DNA of 64,000 nt from contig NZ_LMNF01000003.1 in the NCBI RefSeq assembly GCF_001422485.1, positions 349,443-413,442 of the forward strand, read 5' to 3'. Both the position numbers and the translations under genes were made by a program. Below the pieces are notes generated by a model, which was not told the DNA's origin, ran no database searches, and saw only the letters and a list, made by a program, of their open reading frames with translations. The stretch is from Agreia sp. Leaf283. Lineage in GTDB: Bacteria > Actinomycetota > Actinomycetes > Actinomycetales > Microbacteriaceae. Below, in pieces: positions 4,071 through 58,446 of the stretch (within the stretch, counting starts at the first letter, position 1; each line of letters opens with the position of its first letter).

Positions 4071-5726
4071 TCAGAGCTGCGCCACGACCGCGCGACCGGC
4101 CTGGCGTCCGGAGAACAGGCATCCGCCGAGGAAAGTGCCCTCGAGCGAGCGATAGCCGTGCATGCCCCCGCCGCCGAACCCGCTCGCCTCACCCGCCGCG
4201 TAGAGGCCGGGAATCGCCCGACCCTGCGCATCCATGGCCTGGCCCGCGAGGTTCGTCTCGATGCCGCCCAGGCTCTTGCGGGTGAGCACGTGCAGCTTCA
4301 CGGCGATCAGCGGGCCGGCCTTGGCATCGAGCAGGCGGTGCGGCGTCGCGACTCGGATCAGCCTGTCGCCCCGGTAACGGCGGGCGCCGCGGATCGCGTT
4401 GACCTGCGCGTCTTTCGTGAAGTCGTTCGCCATCTCCCTGTCGCGACCGAGAACCTCGCTCTCGACGCGGGCGCCGTCGAGAACACCGGGCGGCGACAGG
4501 GCCTGCATCGACTCGATGAGTTCGGGCAGGGTCGGTGCCACGGCGAAGTCGACGCCGTTGCGCTTGAATGCTTCGACGGGCCCAGGGGCACCCGGCGCGA
4601 CGCGCTTCGCGAGCAGGCGCAGGTTCTTGTCGGTGAGGTCGGGGTTCTGCTCGCTGCCCGACAGGGCGAACTCCTTCTCGATGATCTTCTGCGTCAGCAC
4701 GAACCAGCTGTGGTCGTATCCGGTCGTGCGCAGGTGCTCGAGGGTGCCCAGCGTGTCGAATCCGGGGAAGAGGGGCACGGGCAGCCGCCGTCCGGTCGCA
4801 TCCAGCCAGAGCGACGACGGCCCCGGCAGAATCCGGATGCCGTGCGACGGCCAGACCGGATCCCAATTGGTGATGCCCTCGGTGTAGTGCCACATGCGAT
4901 CGCCGTTGATCAGGTGGGCGCCGGCCGATTCGGAGATGGCGAGCATGCGCCCGTCGACGTGTGCCGGAACCCCGGAGAGCATCGTCGCCGGGGGAGTGCC
5001 CAACCGTTCGGGCCAGTTCGCGCGCACCAGCTCGTGGTTGCCGCCGATGCCGCCGCTCGTCACGATGACGGCCTGGGCCTCGAGCTCGAAGTCGCCGACC
5101 ACCTCCCGCGAGCTGGACGCACCCCGCGCTGCGTCGTCGTCGACCAGCACGGAGCCGCGGACGCCCACGACCGAGCCGTCTCTCGTGACGAGTTCGTCGA
5201 CGCGATGACGGTGCAGCATGGTCACGAGGCCGCGCGCGATCCCGTCGTCGAGGATGCGCAGGAAGGGGGCGAGCACACCCGGGCCGGTTCCCCAGACGAT
5301 ATGGAACCGGGGCACGCTGTTGCCGTGGCCGTTGGCCGTGTACCCCCCGCGCTCGGCCCAGCCGACGACGGGAAAGAACCGCACGCCCAGGGAGTGGAGC
5401 CAGGCGCGCTTCTCCTCGGCCGCGAACTCGAGGTAGGCCTCGGCCCACTTTCTGGGCCACGCGTCCTCCTCGCGGTCGAAGTCGGCGCTGCCGAACCAGT
5501 CCTGGCGGGCCAGTTCGGCTGAGTCGTGCACTCCGAGCCTGCGCTGTTCGGGCGAATCGACGAGGAACAGTCCGCCGAACGACCACCAGGCCTGCCCGCC
5601 GAGGGATGCGGCGGGCTCCTGCTCGACGATGGTCACCCGCTTGCCCGCGGTGATGAGTTCGGATGCCGTGACGAGGCCGGCGAGGCCCGCCCCGACGATG
5701 ATCGCGTCGCTTCTGGTCGATGACAC
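4071..5726 (-). CDS. FAD-binding dehydrogenase (fumarate reductase/KstD-like flavoprotein)
   Basis: The 551-residue protein starts with a dinucleotide-binding motif GAGLAGLVTASELITAGKRV followed by a Glu (VEQE) that would hold the FAD ribose. The C terminus has the family block GLYAAGEASGFGGGGMHGYR and LGGCLFSGRQAG, which contacts the flavin. It therefore belongs to the FAD_binding_2 superfamily with fumarate reductase, aspartate oxidase and 3-ketosteroid dehydrogenase, and resembles the group annotated simply as FAD-binding dehydrogenase. Substrate is unknown. The start is GTG with AAGGAG five nt upstream. No signal peptide is seen. Confidence 0.85.
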   Translation of the reverse strand: MSSTRSDAIIVGAGLAGLVTASELITAGKRVTIVEQEPAASLGGQAWWSFGGLFLVDSPEQRRLGVHDSAELARQDWFGSADFDREEDAWPRKWAEAYLEFAAEEKRAWLHSLGVRFFPVVGWAERGGYTANGHGNSVPRFHIVWGTGPGVLAPFLRILDDGIARGLVTMLHRHRVDELVTRDGSVVGVRGSVLVDDDAARGASSSREVVGDFELEAQAVIVTSGGIGGNHELVRANWPERLGTPPATMLSGVPAHVDGRMLAISESAGAHLINGDRMWHYTEGITNWDPVWPSHGIRILPGPSSLWLDATGRRLPVPLFPGFDTLGTLEHLRTTGYDHSWFVLTQKIIEKEFALSGSEQNPDLTDKNLRLLAKRVAPGAPGPVEAFKRNGVDFAVAPTLPELIESMQALSPPGVLDGARVESEVLGRDREMANDFTKDAQVNAIRGARRYRGDRLIRVATPHRLLDAKAGPLIAVKLHVLTRKSLGGIETNLAGQAMDAQGRAIPGLYAAGEASGFGGGGMHGYRSLEGTFLGGCLFSGRQAGRAVVAQL

Positions 5727-15227: not shown

Positions 15228-15520
15228 ACAGTGACCACCGACACTCGGTCGGAACCAGCATTCGACACTTGATCAGGTAAAACGGCTGTGGATAAGTGTC
15301 GTGAGGGGTGGGCTGTGGAGGAGAAGAAGTCGCCGGGTTGACTGCCCTTCGACAGGCTCAGGGAACGGGGTCTCGATACGGCCGCGGGCGGCCTACTCGA
15401 CCGGCGCAGGCGCGGAACAGGGGCGGGCCCCTTCGACAGGCTCAGGGAACGGGGTCTGGACCGGAGGGGGGCTTCGACAAGCTCAGGAACGTGCTGCCGA
15501 GCCGTCGTCGAGGGCGGTGC
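15228..15520. repeat. Gene-free spacer with three type A repeats and one inverted type B repeat
   Basis: Type A copies lie at 15345-15366 and 15429-15450, and a copy lacking one G lies at 15472-15490. A type B palindrome occupies 15369-15402 (arms TCTCGATACGGCCGC and GCGGCCTACTCGACC), in the opposite orientation to the copy at 13867-13902. The HNH gene thus sits between inverted type B elements. No open frame in this spacer looks coding. Confidence 0.8.
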
Positions 15521-31450: not shown

Positions 31451-31513
31451 GGCCCTTCGACGGGCTCAGGGAACGAGGCAATCGTTCCCCGAGCCTGTCG
31501 AAGGGCCCTTTTT
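31451..31513 (+). terminator. Terminator built from two inverted type A repeats
   Basis: The left arm (31451-31476, GGCCCTTCGACGGGCTCAGG start) and right arm (31482-31507) are opposite copies of the type A repeat and form a stem of about 26 bp with few mismatches and a 5-nt loop. Five T residues follow (31509-31513). This is a canonical intrinsic terminator made of the dispersed repeat. Confidence 0.88.
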
Positions 31514-48797: not shown

Positions 48798-49612
48798 GAC
48801 GCCGGTTCGCCGCCCGGGCCGGCCTGATCGTGGCCGCGCTCTTCCTCGTCGCGGTCACGCTCATGGCTGTCGCCCCAGGGCTCTTCACGCCCCTCGACCC
48901 GCTCGCCACTGACACCGACCAGGTGCTGCGGCCGCCGGGCTGGGGTCACCCGTTCGGCACCGATCAGACCGGGCGGGACATGTTCGCCCGAGTGGTCTAC
49001 GGCGCGTCGTACTCGCTCGGCGTGGGCGCGGGCGCCACCGCCGCCGCACTGGTGATCGGGGTGGTCGTCGGCACGCTCGTGGGCCTCGCGCCCCGGGTCG
49101 TCGACGGCGTGGCGATGCGTGGCGTTGAGATCCTGCTCGCGTTTCCGGAATTCCTCATCGCGCTCTTCGCCATCGCCGTTCTCGGGCCGGGCCCCGTGAA
49201 CGTGGCCACCGCCGTGGGCGTCGCGGCGCTCCCGGCCTACATCAGGGTCGCCCGGGCGGAAACGCTCGTCGTGCGGCGCTCGGGATATGTGGAGGCGGCC
49301 CGGGGGCTCGGGGTGCACCCACTCCGTGTGGCCGTCTCGCACGTCGTGCCGAACACTCTCCGCCCGCTCGGCGTGATCGCCACCATCGGCATCGGAACGA
49401 CGATCGTCGCGGCGGCGGGCCTCAGCTTTCTCGGACTCGGCCCGCAGGACCCGACGCCGGAATGGGGACTCCTGCTCTCGGGCGGTCGAAATCTGCTCGC
49501 CCAGGCCTGGTGGGTCGCCTTCTTCCCGGGCGTTCTGATCACGGGCACGGTCGTGTCGGCGACCGTCGTGGGGCGTCGCCTGCGTCGCGCCGGCGAAGGA
49601 AGGCGATCATGA
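48794..49612 (+). CDS. ABC transporter permease (DppC/OppC type)
   Basis: This 272-residue permease has an N-terminal helix followed by HPFGTDQTGRDMFARVVYGASYSL, the DppC hallmark, and an EAA loop EAARGLGVHPLRVAVSHVVPN. ATG at 48794 overlaps the previous stop. The same frame is open far upstream through the binding-protein gene, but that extension is a shadow frame. The stop overlaps the ATPase start (ATGA). Confidence 0.93.
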   Translation: MRRRFAARAGLIVAALFLVAVTLMAVAPGLFTPLDPLATDTDQVLRPPGWGHPFGTDQTGRDMFARVVYGASYSLGVGAGATAAALVIGVVVGTLVGLAPRVVDGVAMRGVEILLAFPEFLIALFAIAVLGPGPVNVATAVGVAALPAYIRVARAETLVVRRSGYVEAARGLGVHPLRVAVSHVVPNTLRPLGVIATIGIGTTIVAAAGLSFLGLGPQDPTPEWGLLLSGGRNLLAQAWWVAFFPGVLITGTVVSATVVGRRLRRAGEGRRS

Positions 49613-51309
49613 CCGATGCCCGAGAGGTCGTGCGCGCCACGGGGCTGACCGTGCGCTTCGGGCCGACGGTCGTCGTCGACTCCGTGTCGCTCTCCCTGGC
49701 TGCCGGCGAATGCCTGGCGATCGTGGGGGAGTCGGGGTCGGGCAAGACCCTGACGGCGCGGGCGCTCCTGGGCCTGCTGCCCGATGACGCCGTGCTCTCC
49801 GCCGACGAACTGCTGATCGACGGCGTCGACGTTCGCCGCTTGTCCGAGGCGGACTGGCGGCGCATCCGCGGTGCCCGCGTGGGCCTCGTGAGCCAGGACG
49901 CGCTGGTCTCGCTCGACCCGCTGCGCCGGGTCGGTCGCGAGGTCGCAGAGGTGCTCGAGATCCACGGCGATCCGTCGTCGGGCGACCGGATGCCCCGGGC
50001 CGCGCTCGACGAGACGGTCACCGCCCAGCTCGGCCGGGTCGCCGTGCCGGAGCCGGAGGAGCGCGCGCGCCAGTACCCTCACGAGCTGTCCGGGGGCCTT
50101 CGCCAGCGCGCGCTGATCGCGTCGGCCCTGGCCGGCGAGCCTGGTGTGCTCATCGCCGACGAACCGACGACGGCGCTCGACGTGACCGTGCAGGCGCAGG
50201 TGCTCGAGCTGCTGTCGGGGCTGCGCGACGACGGTCTGGGAATCATCGTGATCAGCCACGACCTCGCCGTCGTTGCGGGGATCGCCGACCGGGTGGCCGT
50301 GATGCGCAGCGGGCGCATCGTCGAGGAGGGTACGACCGTCGAAGTTCTCTCGAACCCGCGGCACCCCTACACGCGGATGCTGCTGGCGGCGGCGCCGCGG
50401 CTGCCTGCTACGCCGTTCCCTGAGCCGTCGTTCCCTGAGCCGTCGTTCGCTGAGCCTGTCGAAGGGAGCCGCCCTTCGACAAGCTCAGGGAACGGCCCTT
50501 CGACAAGCTCAGGGAACGGGACTTCTGCAGGCTCAGGGAACGGCCCGGTGCTGCGTGCCACCGGGCTGGGGCGTGACTTCCGCCGCCCCGACGGGGGCGT
50601 GCGCTCGGCCGTCGACGATGTGTCGTTCGACGTGCTCCCCGCCGCGGCGATCGGCATCGTGGGGGAGTCGGGCTCGGGCAAGACCACCCTCGCCCGCCTG
50701 CTCCTCGGATTCGACGCGCCCGACCGGGGCTCCGTGACGCTCGACGGACAGCCCTGGAGCGGCGTGAAGGAGGGCCGCAGGCGATCGCGGCGCGGCGACA
50801 TCCAGTACATCAGCCAGGACCCGCTCGGATCCTTCGATCCGCGATACACCGTCTCGCGCATCGTGGCGGAGGGACTGCGCGGCGGCCCCCGCACGTCGTC
50901 CCGCAGCCGGGCCGCGCGCATCCGGGCCCTGCTCGACAGCGTGGGCATCGACTCGTCGCTCGCGGGCAGGCGGCCGCACGAGCTGTCGGGTGGCCAGCGG
51001 CAGAGGGTCGCTATCGCCCGCGCCATCGCGTCGGAACCGCGCATCCTGGTGTGCGACGAGCCGGTGTCGGCGCTCGACGTGTCGATCCAGGCCACGATCA
51101 TCGACCTGCTCGCAGGGCTGCGTCGCGACCTGGGCGTGGCGCTCGTGTTCGTGTCGCACGACCTCGCCGTGGTGGCCACGCTCTGCGATGACGTGCTGGT
51201 GATGAGGGATGGCCGTGTGGTGGAGCGCGGAGCGATCGGCGAGGTATTCGCCCACCCGCAGCACCCCTTCACGAAGGCGCTCGTCGATGCGGTGCCGCGG
51301 ATGCCGTGA
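49609..51309 (+). CDS. Fused ABC transporter ATPase (DppD-DppF type) with a repeat-derived linker
   Basis: The 566-residue protein joins two ATPase domains that are usually separate. Domain 1 has Walker A GESGSGKT near 44, the signature LSGGLRQR and Walker [11 protein letters not shown]. Domain 2 has GESGSGKT near 352, [14 protein letters not shown] and [12 protein letters not shown]. Both have the D loop and switch His ([18 protein letters not shown]). The linker (about 267-312) reads [20 protein letters not shown] then [15 protein letters not shown] and is encoded by tandem REP-like type A repeats in both orientations. The fusion keeps the frame through all copies. Confidence 0.93.
50412..50543. 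repeat. Tandem type A repeats inside the ABC ATPase gene
   Basis: Three partial copies in one orientation (from 50415, ending with GCTGAGCCTGTCGAAGGGAG at about 50469) are followed by three in the opposite orientation (from 50472, each with the core CTTCGACAAGCTCAGGGAAC or a variant). All lie in the linker between the two ATPase domains and none introduces a stop in the coding frame. Confidence 0.9.
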
Positions 51310-52676: not shown

Positions 52677-55600
52677 ATGTCGTACCCCAAGAACTCTGAA
52701 GAGAACGCAGGCGAGCAGCACCGTCACGCGGCGCCCGCCATCACGCCGAGCCCGAACTTCCCCGCGATCGAAGAAGAGGTGCTCGGCTTCTGGAAGGCCG
52801 ACGACACCTTCAGGGCGTCGATCGAGAACCGTGCGGATGCCGACGAGTGGGTCTTCTACGACGGCCCGCCGTTCGCGAACGGCCTGCCCCACTACGGGCA
52901 CCTGCTGACCGGCTACGCCAAGGACCTCTTCCCGAGGTTCCAGACGATGCGCGGCAAGAAGGTCGAACGCCGCTTCGGCTGGGACACCCACGGACTGCCC
53001 GCCGAGCTCGAGGCCATGCGTCAGCTGGGCATCACCGAGAAGAGCCAGATCGAAGACATGGGCATCGGGGTCTTCAACCAGGCGTCGCGCGACTCCGTGC
53101 TGCGCTACACCGGCGAATGGCAGGAGTACGTGACCCGCCAGGCCCGCTGGGTCGACTTCGAGAACGACTACAAGACCCTCGACATCACCTTCATGGAGAG
53201 CGTCATCTGGGCGTTCAAGCAGCTGCACACCAAGGGCCTCGCCTACGAGGGCTTCCGGGTGCTGCCGTACTGCTGGCACGACGAGACGCCGCTGTCGAAC
53301 CACGAGCTGCGCATGGACGACGACGTCTACAAGATGCGCCAGGACCAGACCGTCACCGTGACGTTCCCGCTCACCGGGGCCAAGGCCGAGGCGCTCGGCC
53401 TCACCGCCGTGCGCGCCCTGGCCTGGACGACGACACCGTGGACCCTGCCGACGAACCTGGCGCTCGCGGTCGGCCCGGGCATCCAGTATGCGGTCGTGCC
53501 GGGCGGGTCGAACGGCGCCGCCGACGTGCACGAGGACAGGCTCGAGGGGGAGTCGCACGAGTACCTCATCGCGCAGGACCTCGTGGGCAACTACGCGAAG
53601 GACTTGGGCTACGAGTCCGCCGACGACGCCATCGCCGCGATCTCGCGCACCCACCTGGGGGCCGAGCTCGAGGGCATCACCTACGACCGGCTCTGGGACT
53701 ACTACGCCGACACCGAGACGTGGGGAACGCAGAACGCGTGGCGCATCCTCGTCGCCGACTATGTGTCGACCACCGACGGAACCGGCATCGTGCACCAGGC
53801 GCCCGCCTACGGTGAGGAGGACCAGAAGATCTGCGAGGCCGCCGGAATCCCCGTGGTGATCTCGGTCGACGAGGGCGCGCGATTCCTGCCCGCCGTCGCC
53901 GACGTGGTCGGACTGCAGGTCTTCGAGGCGAACAAGCCGCTCACCCAGCTGCTGCGCGCCAACGGACGTCTGCTGCGCCAGGCCAGCTACGAGCACTCCT
54001 ACCCGCACTGCTGGCGCTGCCGCAACCCGCTGATCTACAAGGCCGTGTCGAGCTGGTTCGTGCGCGTCACCGAGTTCCGCGACCGCATGGAGACGCTCAA
54101 CCAGGAGATCAACTGGATCCCCGAGAACGTGAAGGACGGCCAGTTCGGCAAGTGGGTGTCGAACGCCCGCGACTGGTCGATCTCGCGCAACCGCTACTGG
54201 GGATCGCCGATCCCGGTGTGGAAGAGCGACAACCCCGAGTACCCGAGGGTCGACGTCTACGGATCGCTCGACGAGCTCGAGGCCGACTTCGGCGTGCGCC
54301 CGACAGATCTGCATCGCCCGTACATCGACGAGCTCACGCGCCCCAACCCCGACGACCCCACCGGGCAGTCGACGATGCGCCGCATCGAAGACGTGCTCGA
54401 CGTGTGGTTCGACTCGGGCTCGATGCCGTTCGCCCAGGTGCACTACCCGTTCGAGAACCAGGACTGGTTCGACAGCCACAACCCGGCCGACTTCATCGTC
54501 GAGTACATCGGGCAGACCCGCGGCTGGTTCTACACGCTGCACACGCTGTCGACCGCGCTCTTCGACCGACCCGCCTTCCGCAACGTGGTCAGCCACGGCA
54601 TCGTGCTCGGCAGCGACGGGCAGAAGATGTCGAAGAGCCTGCGCAACTACCCCGACGTCTCCGAGGTGCTCGATCGCGACGGCTCGGATGCGATGCGCTG
54701 GTTCCTCATGAGCTCGCCCGTTCTGCGCGGCGGCAACCTCGTGGTGACCGAGGAGGCGATCCGCGAGGCGACGAGGCAGGTTCTGCTGCCCCTGTGGAGC
54801 ACGTACTACTTCTTCACCCTCTACGCGAATTCCGCCAAGCCGTCCCCTGAGCCTGTCGAAGGTTCGTTCCCTGAGCCCGTCGAAGGGGCCGGAGGCTACG
54901 AAGCGCAGCTGAGCACCTCGTCGACCGACGTGCTCGACCGCTACCTGCTGGCCAAGACCCGTGAGCTCATCCACGACGTCGCGGCAGACCTCGACGCCTA
55001 CGACTCGACACTCGCCACCGCCAAGCTGCGCGACTTCGCCGACGTGCTCACCAACTGGTACGTGCGTCGCAGCCGCGACCGCTTCTGGTCGGGAACCGAC
55101 ACCGCGGCCTTCGACACCCTCTTCACGGTGCTCGAGGCCGTGACCCGCGTGGCCGCGCCCCTGCTGCCTCTCGTCACGGAGCGCATCTGGAAGGGTCTCA
55201 CCGGAGGCCGCAGCGTGCACCTCACCGACTGGCCCGACGAGAACCGCTTCCCGGCCGATCCCGGCCTCGTGCACGCCATGGACCAGGTGCGGGAGATCTC
55301 CTCCACCGTGCTCTCGCTGCGCAAGCAGAGCGGTCTTCGCGTGCGCCTTCCGCTGGCCAACCTCACCATCGTGGCGTCGAATGTCGAGGCGCTGCGTCCC
55401 TTCGAGGGCATCCTCGCCGACGAGCTCAACGTGAAGAGCGTCACCCTGGTCGAGCAGCAGCCCAACAGCGCTGTCGAGTTCGGCATCACGTCGAAGCTCA
55501 CGGTCAACGCGCGGGCAGCCGGCCCGCGTCTGGGCAAGCAGGTGCAGCAGGTCATCAAGGCCGCCCGAGGCGGCGACTGGTCGGAGAGCAACGGCGTCGT

Positions 55601-56111
55601 GACGGCGGGCGGCATCGACCTGGTCGAGGGCGAATACGAGCTCGTGCTCGAGACGCAGGATGCCGGGGACGGCTCCCACGCGGCCCTCGCGCTGCTCCCG
55701 GGCGGCGGCTTCGCACTGCTCGACACCGCGACCACCCCGGAGCTCGAGGCGGAGGGCCTCGCGAGAGACATGATCCGAGCTGTGCAGGACGCGCGCAAGT
55801 CCGCCGGGTTCGAGGTCAGCGACCGCATCGTGCTCGACCTGGTCTTCTTCTCCGACACCGATGCGGATGCGCTGCGACAGGCATCCTCCGTCGACGTCGC
55901 GGGGGAGACCCTCGCCACCAGCTTCACCATCTCCGGCCCCCGTGACACCCCCGCCCTCGAGGGGTACCGTGAAAGTCTGGTCACCGAGTGGATCGGCGAC
56001 GCGGTGGCCACGTCACCCGAGCACGTCGTTCGCATCGGCGGCGCCAAGTACGCGAACACCGACGACCTCATCGTCGCGGTGAGCCGACAGTCAGGAATCC
56101 GCAATGTCTGA
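52677..56111 (+). CDS. ileS: Isoleucine--tRNA ligase with a repeat-encoded insertion
   Basis: The 1144-residue class I synthetase has HYGH in [16 protein letters not shown] near residue 70, a CP1 editing domain, [11 protein letters not shown] near 649 and a long C-terminal domain. The GLPHYGH form and size indicate the IleS2 (eukaryote-like) clade, as in mycobacteria; that clade is known for low mupirocin sensitivity, not tested here. Residues about 722-739 ([15 protein letters not shown]) are encoded by two type A repeats between the catalytic core and the anticodon-binding domain, in frame. ATG at 52677 has CCAGGAGAA upstream and is controlled by the T-box. Confidence 0.96.
54841..54893. 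repeat. Two type A repeats inserted in frame in ileS
   Basis: CCCCTGAGCCTGTCGAAGG and TTCCCTGAGCCCGTCGAAGG are direct repeats about 25 bp apart within the coding region. They encode PSPEPVEGS and FPEPVEGA. The flanking sequence reads NSAK before and GGYEAQ after. Confidence 0.92.
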
Positions 56112-57989: not shown

Positions 57990-58412
57990 GTGACCATCAC
58001 GAGCGAAGAATCCCTCGTTCTCATCAAGCCCGACGGCGTGGCCCGCAACCTCACGGGGGAGATCCTCTCCCGCATCGAGGGCAAGGGCTACCAGCTGGTC
58101 GACATCAAGCTCATCCAGCCCGAGCGCAGCGTGCTCGCGGCGCACTACGCCGAGCACGAGGGCAAGCCGTTCTACGAGCCGCTCATCGAATTCATGGAGT
58201 CGGGACCGATCGTGGCGATCCGCATCGCGGGCAACCGCGTCATCGAGGGCTTCCGCTCGCTCGCCGGCACCACCGACCCCACCACGGCCGCTCCCGGCAC
58301 GATCCGCGGCGACCTGGGCCGCGACTGGGGCCTGAAGGTTCAGCAGAACCTCGTGCACGGCAGCGACTCGCCCGAGTCGGCCCAGCGCGAACTCGCGATC
58401 TGGTTCGGCTGA
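57990..58412 (+). CDS. ndk: Nucleoside diphosphate kinase
   Basis: The 140-residue enzyme has the phosphohistidine motif NLVHGSDSPESAQREL and the nucleotide-binding segment TDPTTAAPGTIRGDLG. It transfers phosphate from NTP to NDP. It starts with GTG. A type A repeat follows 4 bp after the stop. Confidence 0.96.
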   Translation: MTITSEESLVLIKPDGVARNLTGEILSRIEGKGYQLVDIKLIQPERSVLAAHYAEHEGKPFYEPLIEFMESGPIVAIRIAGNRVIEGFRSLAGTTDPTTAAPGTIRGDLGRDWGLKVQQNLVHGSDSPESAQRELAIWFG

Positions 58413-58415
58413 CCC

Positions 58416-58437
58416 GTTCCCTGAGCCTGTCGAAGGG
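58416..58437. repeat. Type A repeat between ndk and VKOR genes
   Basis: A full-length copy of the dispersed repeat lies 3 bp past the ndk stop and 9 bp before the stop of the convergent VKOR gene. Confidence 0.85.
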
Positions 58438-58446
58438 CGGGTCTTC

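Follow-up and report, generated by a model that had tools for sequence, protein, structure and literature searches.

A REP-like repeat has probably colonised the inter-domain linker of an anciently fused ABC ATPase

Introduction

The REPIN/RAYT system is said to consist of short repeats in facing pairs, present at high copy number, and the repeat that we describe here as type A resembles REPINs in both respects. The GTAG and CGTC REPs, in those parts of the survey by Di Nocera and colleagues (2013; PMC3733652) on which we draw, are elements of 20-40 bp that are high in copy number, mostly intergenic and predominantly located between convergent and codirectional genes, where facing dimers also occur; the CGTC REPs are reported there to have no transposase of their own. 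The same parts of the survey report REPs inside the open reading frames of several species, tRNA synthetase genes included, REP clusters in Thauera and R. conorii that code for stretches of 43 to 82 aa, and, in two Xanthomonas species, recB genes with a different REP each at nearly the same position; placement in flexible linkers or loops is proposed there as a reason why such insertions may be neutral (PMC3733652). The Rickettsia palindromic elements (RPE), as portrayed in the sections of two further papers used here (PMC10969869, PMC2635572), are palindromic selfish DNA; the elements measure about 150 bp, have a peptide that is conserved, and sit in frame within genes unrelated to one another, where they are predicted to be compatible with the protein fold.

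Here we examine a gene for a fused ABC ATPase in a 64-kb stretch of DNA from Agreia sp. Leaf283, hereafter the window (64,000 nucleotides, to which all positions refer unless stated otherwise), whose two ATPase domains are joined by an array of repeats. We consider it very probable that the gene encodes an ordinary dipeptide/oligopeptide ABC ATPase that was fused long ago and whose permissive linker has been colonised by the high-copy, REP-like type A repeat. Intragenic REPs are already known; what is new is the type A family itself, the fact that it appears to have no RAYT, and the linkers compared here among the members of one genus. Within an open-licence library we found no report of the type A repeat, nor of REPs in this ATPase.

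Results

The window belongs to a genome of 3.98 Mb in four contigs (G000), and a search of the genus returned a match to the ATPase in each of eight genomes, the other seven being labelled G001-G007. The gene lies on the + strand at 49609-51309, and its product of 566 aa has two ABC_tran domains. Both domains on one chain, together with homology over the full length, place the protein among the fused DppD-type ABC ATPases: phmmer aligned the fused ATPase of M. tuberculosis DppABCD (DppD, 548 aa) to residues 7-566 of the query, and Foldseek gave a TMt of 0.90 to 8wd9_D, which is M. tuberculosis DppD, and ranked 8j5q_D, a fused OppABCD ATPase, first by E-value. In M. tuberculosis DppD (8wd9, 8wda, 8wdb, 8xfc), as in the query, a single chain holds both ATPase domains, but its linker aligns without a repeat-encoded stretch. 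Upstream of the gene stand a solute-binding protein and two permeases, and this operon context, together with homology, makes dipeptides or oligopeptides the putative substrate of the system. A contig search with the protein led to distant relatives, 35 to 44 percent identical to it, and an Rfam scan of the whole window returned two tRNAs and nothing else.

The earlier note had seen six repeat copies, in two orientations, between the ATPase domains, and they are found there: residues 268-312 (50412-50543, + strand) are encoded by an array of six type A copies, four of them full-length and two truncated, with three copies in each orientation. On the - strand lie two truncated copies of 13 nt (50414-50426 and, after a 15-nt step, 50429-50441) and one full-length copy with a single core mismatch (50444-50466); on the + strand stand three full-length copies, at 50472-50494 and, in 24-nt steps, at 50496-50518 and 50520-50542, with 0, 0 and 3 core mismatches, respectively. 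TRF divides the same region into a 15-nt array (50414-50461) followed by a 24-nt array (50463-50546). The copies keep the frame, as the note had also said, since 49609-51309 is open all the way through the array. Its description of the copies as tandem palindromes must be narrowed: all six are present, but two are truncated, and a single unit is only weakly self-complementary, at about -4 kcal/mol (-4.0 and -4.5 for lone units). A facing pair from G004 folds at -41.1 kcal/mol, and the palindrome strength of the array derives from copies that face each other. Over the 64-kb window the type A core, at up to three mismatches, matches 19 times against a shuffle mean of 0.15, and none of 100 dinucleotide-preserving shuffles of the window reached that count.

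Across 168 contexts the type A consensus reads gCCCTTCGACA(g/a)GCTCAGGGAACGg. With at most one mismatch, its 18-nt core has 445 matches in G000 (228 + 217), while a reversed control pattern has none, and the corresponding counts are 245 in G004, 104 in G001, 61 in G005, 46 in G003, 45 in G002, 5 in G006 and 0 in G007. At least one match occurs in 33 of 150 genomes of the family, often just one or two, and in 31 of 396 genomes of the phylum. The repeat is REP-like in the general sense, being short, high in copy number and mainly outside genes, but it does not consistently carry the end tag of either superfamily named above: of the 168 contexts, 7 have GTAG or its complement no more than 12 nt from the core and 36 have CGTC or its complement at that distance, and CGTC is absent from the consensus. 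No Y1 (RAYT) transposase (PF01797) was matched in any of 16 genomes, namely G000 and 15 related ones, high-copy genomes included, in a search that gave hits in 5 of 14 control genomes. A second family, type B, has 43 matches in G002, 50 in G005, 22 in G000, 16 in G004, 10 in G003, 3 in G006, 2 in G001 and none in G007. The two families appear to be unrelated, as they are no more alike in sequence than shuffles are (479 of 500 shuffles reached the observed score).

As to how the two domains came to share one chain, the earlier note had left two routes open, namely that repeats expanded inside a linker already there, or that the repeats themselves made the fusion, the stop between a separate dppD and dppF having been lost through an array at their junction. 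Across the genus all eight orthologues are single open frames, the linker of G003 being free of repeats and 20 residues long. In the family, a search at E values up to 1e-130 over 120 genomes gave a match in 41 of them; 46 of the 47 matches have no internal stop and one has a stop inside. In all 29 family loci that were fetched, one frame runs open throughout the match, and the linker region carries type A or B in none of the 29, the weak matches in two of them (L120 and L123) lying elsewhere in the gene. A stop does fall inside the match interval in 10 of 39 chosen distant relatives, so that unfused forms may exist far away, and this is the observation that speaks for a fusion made by repeats. 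Nevertheless, separate dppD and dppF genes were met in none of the eight genus genomes or the 29 family loci, and M. tuberculosis DppD is likewise fused. We reject the stop-loss origin, to which we give next to no credence, because relatives with repeat-free or otherwise built linkers are already fused; these comparisons indicate that the fusion predates the array, and that the repeats grew, as the first of the two routes has it, inside a pre-existing linker.

That linker, counted as the residues between AAAPRL and TGLGRDFR or their equivalents, is longest in G000, with 52 aa, and the shorter forms that the note had proposed to look for in relatives exist, at 20 to 44 aa: 31 in G004, 34 in G001, 44 in both G002 and G005, 33 in G006, 27 in G007 and 20 in G003. 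Copy number and linker length vary among the relatives within the genus, each species being represented by one genome, and the linker is labile there, within a range of 20 to 52 residues. The G004 orthologue is 94 percent identical to that of G000 and its linker holds three type A copies, one truncated and one full copy in reverse and one forward; the 63 nt by which G000 exceeds it amount to one 15-nt and two 24-nt units. In G001 the linker contains two type A copies that face each other and start equally far behind the first domain. The linkers of G002 and G005 carry the palindromic type B instead, with arms GGTCTCGATACGGCC and CTACTCGACCAGCGG, that of G006 matches type A once and weakly (3 mismatches), and that of G007 has a 12-nt-type tandem repeat coding for PSEPV. 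Of 17 fused paralogues in the genus that could be parsed, 15 gave no match to type A or to type B, and neither did the other two where checked.

Arrays of this kind can break draft assemblies, as contig C31 of G004 (110 contigs) illustrates, which starts with seven type A matches in exact 24-nt steps (contig positions 7-168). It might accordingly be asked whether the array in G000, or its copy number, is an artefact of assembly. We hold this to be very improbable: G000 is in only four contigs, the array, at 130 nt, is below common read length, its copies are non-identical and leave the frame open, and both G004 and G001 have facing type A pairs at the same place.

The RNA of the array (135 nt) folds at -96 kcal/mol, with a z of -10.8 that none of 200 shuffles equalled. 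One could therefore imagine that the array is kept for a use, whereby linker length or an mRNA hairpin tunes folding or ATPase coupling, and the excess structure of the linker RNA in G004, G001, G002 and G005 (z of -6.2, -3.9, -3.7 and -2.6), the frame-preserving units and the recurrence of repeat families in the same linkers all agree with such a role. Yet the linkers of G003, G006 and G007, of 20 to 33 aa, show no excess RNA structure (z of 0.0, 0.3 and -0.2), and the fused paralogues lack both repeats to the extent given above. A conserved hairpin role is unlikely, because those three linkers fold no better than shuffles; the fold in G000 is nonetheless so far from random that there is room for some hairpin role, and a useful array as a whole strikes us as unlikely. 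In the structure model, built on an alignment with 29 relatives (mean pLDDT 88.9, pTM 0.85), residues 270-309 are the sole segment of at least three residues with a pLDDT below 50. They would fit a flexible spacer, low pLDDT in a poorly aligned linker being weak evidence of disorder.

The wider distribution of type A was surveyed at up to two mismatches in the window and 60 stretches of 20 kb, 1.264 Mb in all, with gene calls of our own that rest on codon usage rather than on an annotation and cover 0.858 of the sample. Outside these genes lie 144 of 169 matches and 67 of 80 loci, leaving 25 matches and 13 loci inside. Of the intergenic loci with two called neighbours, 28 of 66 are between convergent genes, against 11.0 expected (P 7e-7), and 6 of 66 are in divergent-gene intervals, against 11.3 expected (P 0.050). 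A complete avoidance of divergent promoters had seemed to hold in a 464-kb sample (0 of 24), but the larger sample does away with it.

Six of the 13 intragenic loci fall between two domains. Besides residues 268-312 of the fused ABC ATPase, these are residues 723-736 of IleS (between 35-684 and 754-893), 186-201 of a UPF0261 protein (between 2-175 and 208-424), 421-440 of CofGH (between 67-397 and 455-784), 422-452 of NadB (between 4-403 and 461-545) and 140-155 of MshD. In the last case the domain search gave the C-terminal GNAT domain, 200-290, as its best stretch, and we presume that MshD has two GNAT domains, the first of which lies upstream of the type A copy. Three loci are in tails (a DUF2071 protein, a circularly permuted ATP-grasp protein and GrpE), three are inside a Pfam envelope (an ABC exporter, whose match has two mismatches and may be due to chance, a Peptidase_C26 protein and SMC), and one (L247) is in a gene without domain assignment. 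Ten of the 13 are consequently outside Pfam envelopes, where about 4.3 would be expected from envelopes set by hand from domain tables (P about 5e-4, post hoc); such an excess is what the survival of harmless insertions would give. In the 464-kb sample, same-strand spacings are multiples of three in all four cases within genes (24, 24, 30 and 42) versus 6 of 18 outside (P 0.029). The 24-nt unit is open in five of its six frames, and several of them are used in genes; the frame that reads FDKLRER is absent from the 13 intragenic segments, just a hint given so few loci.

The alternation of A and B in the ABC ATPase linker recurs in NadB. In this gene, which is present in seven of the eight genus genomes, type A has 3 matches in G000, 4 in G004, 2 in G001 and 2 in G003, and type B is found in G002, G005 and G006; in G006 (locus L263) the type B stretch of the linker continues into a tandem repeat coding for SPLEQR. 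CofGH, also present in seven of the eight, has type A in six and none in G006. The domain tree of the ABC ATPase groups (G000, G004), (G001, (G002, (G005, G003))) and (G006, G007), with supports of 98, 95, 54 and 100, the 54 being that for G003 beside G005 in a tree of seven or eight sequences, and the IleS tree disagrees with it in placing G002 elsewhere. So small a tree, with a support of 54 at that point and a discordant IleS tree beside it, does not settle in which order the A and B events took place; the alternation of A and B in NadB and in the ABC ATPase fits no one simple tree, and may reflect insertion more than once, replacement or recombination.

In ileS (52677-56108) two in-frame type A copies, 24 nt apart (54845-54886, - strand), stand in G000 between the catalytic core and the anticodon domain, one copy each is found in G004 and G002, and no copy in G001, G003, G005 or G006. 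The insert common to G002, G000 and G004 is missing in G001, G003 and G005, a pattern for which, given the discordant gene trees, recombination or loss is possible. Between two further genes, a type A copy (58419-58436, - strand) is contained in an extra stretch of 33 nt at 58410-58445 that is absent from G004, G001, G005, G003 and G002, all of which present clean empty sites; the 33-nt stretch with its type A unit appears to be a recent insertion. As no transposase was found, the word insertion rests, for type A, on such empty sites in relatives.

Discussion

We suggest that the history of the colonised linker ran as follows. A facing type A pair would have entered the linker before the species split of G000 and G004, and the pair at the same offset in G001 suggests an entry that is earlier still. 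In the lineage of G000, comparison with G004 shows growth of the array in place, by the one 15-nt and two 24-nt units in which the two differ, probably through slippage during replication or through unequal recombination of units identical in sequence; the frame stayed open because the added units are all multiples of three. The resulting linker, rich in Pro, Ser, Gly and Glu and predicted to be disordered, would act as a spacer. Selection would purge insertions that land in folded domains or interrupt the frame, and it is because the others are removed that the surviving intragenic copies would be mostly in inter-domain linkers and tails, as they are in our sample.

Set beside the GTAG and CGTC REPs, as the cited parts of PMC3733652 portray them, type A is alike in being short, high in copy number and mostly intergenic, in its facing copies and in its presence in some open reading frames, that of a tRNA synthetase included; it is unlike them in that it has no consistent tag, that a lone unit forms a weak stem, and that none of the 16 genomes searched yielded a Y1 transposase. 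The linker idea is put verbally in those parts of PMC3733652, whereas for type A the position relative to domains has been measured at 13 loci. With the RPE, as described in the sections cited (PMC10969869, PMC2635572), type A shares in-frame insertion in unrelated genes (13 genes in the 1.264-Mb sample), but its unit is of about 24 nt, grows in tandem and is read in several frames. The facing pairs and copy number recall REPINs; the want of any PF01797 match in G000 and the 15 related genomes sets it apart from REPIN/RAYT.

Within the genus one can compare empty sites with sites that hold one copy, follow growth in tandem, and see a second family in the same linkers of two genes. We would go further, although only tentatively and with more doubt than conviction, and propose that the inter-domain linkers of a set of housekeeping enzymes in this genus are recurrent homes of REPs, in which the unrelated families A and B take each other's place as species diverge (A in G000, G004 and G001 and B in G002 and G005 for the ABC ATPase, with the corresponding division described for NadB), so that selfish DNA copied by a machinery other than RAYT renews the sequence and length of linkers. 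If the pattern seen in the genus comparison held across whole genomes, one could read tolerant domain boundaries off the REP insertions, as natural markers, and linkers would have a length that changes quickly under the action of selfish DNA.

We note, finally, three arrangements outside the genes discussed above. An intergenic array at 15346-15488 has type A copies beside a type B-like GGTCTCGATACGG, the two families being together in one place, and at 4991-5280 of locus L085 copies of type A and of a third repeat (TCGTCGAGCCTGTCGAGACG) alternate. At 31454-31504 a facing type A pair and a T-run follow a gene in a terminator-like arrangement, and this pair holds its place in all six genomes compared, in degenerate form in G003.
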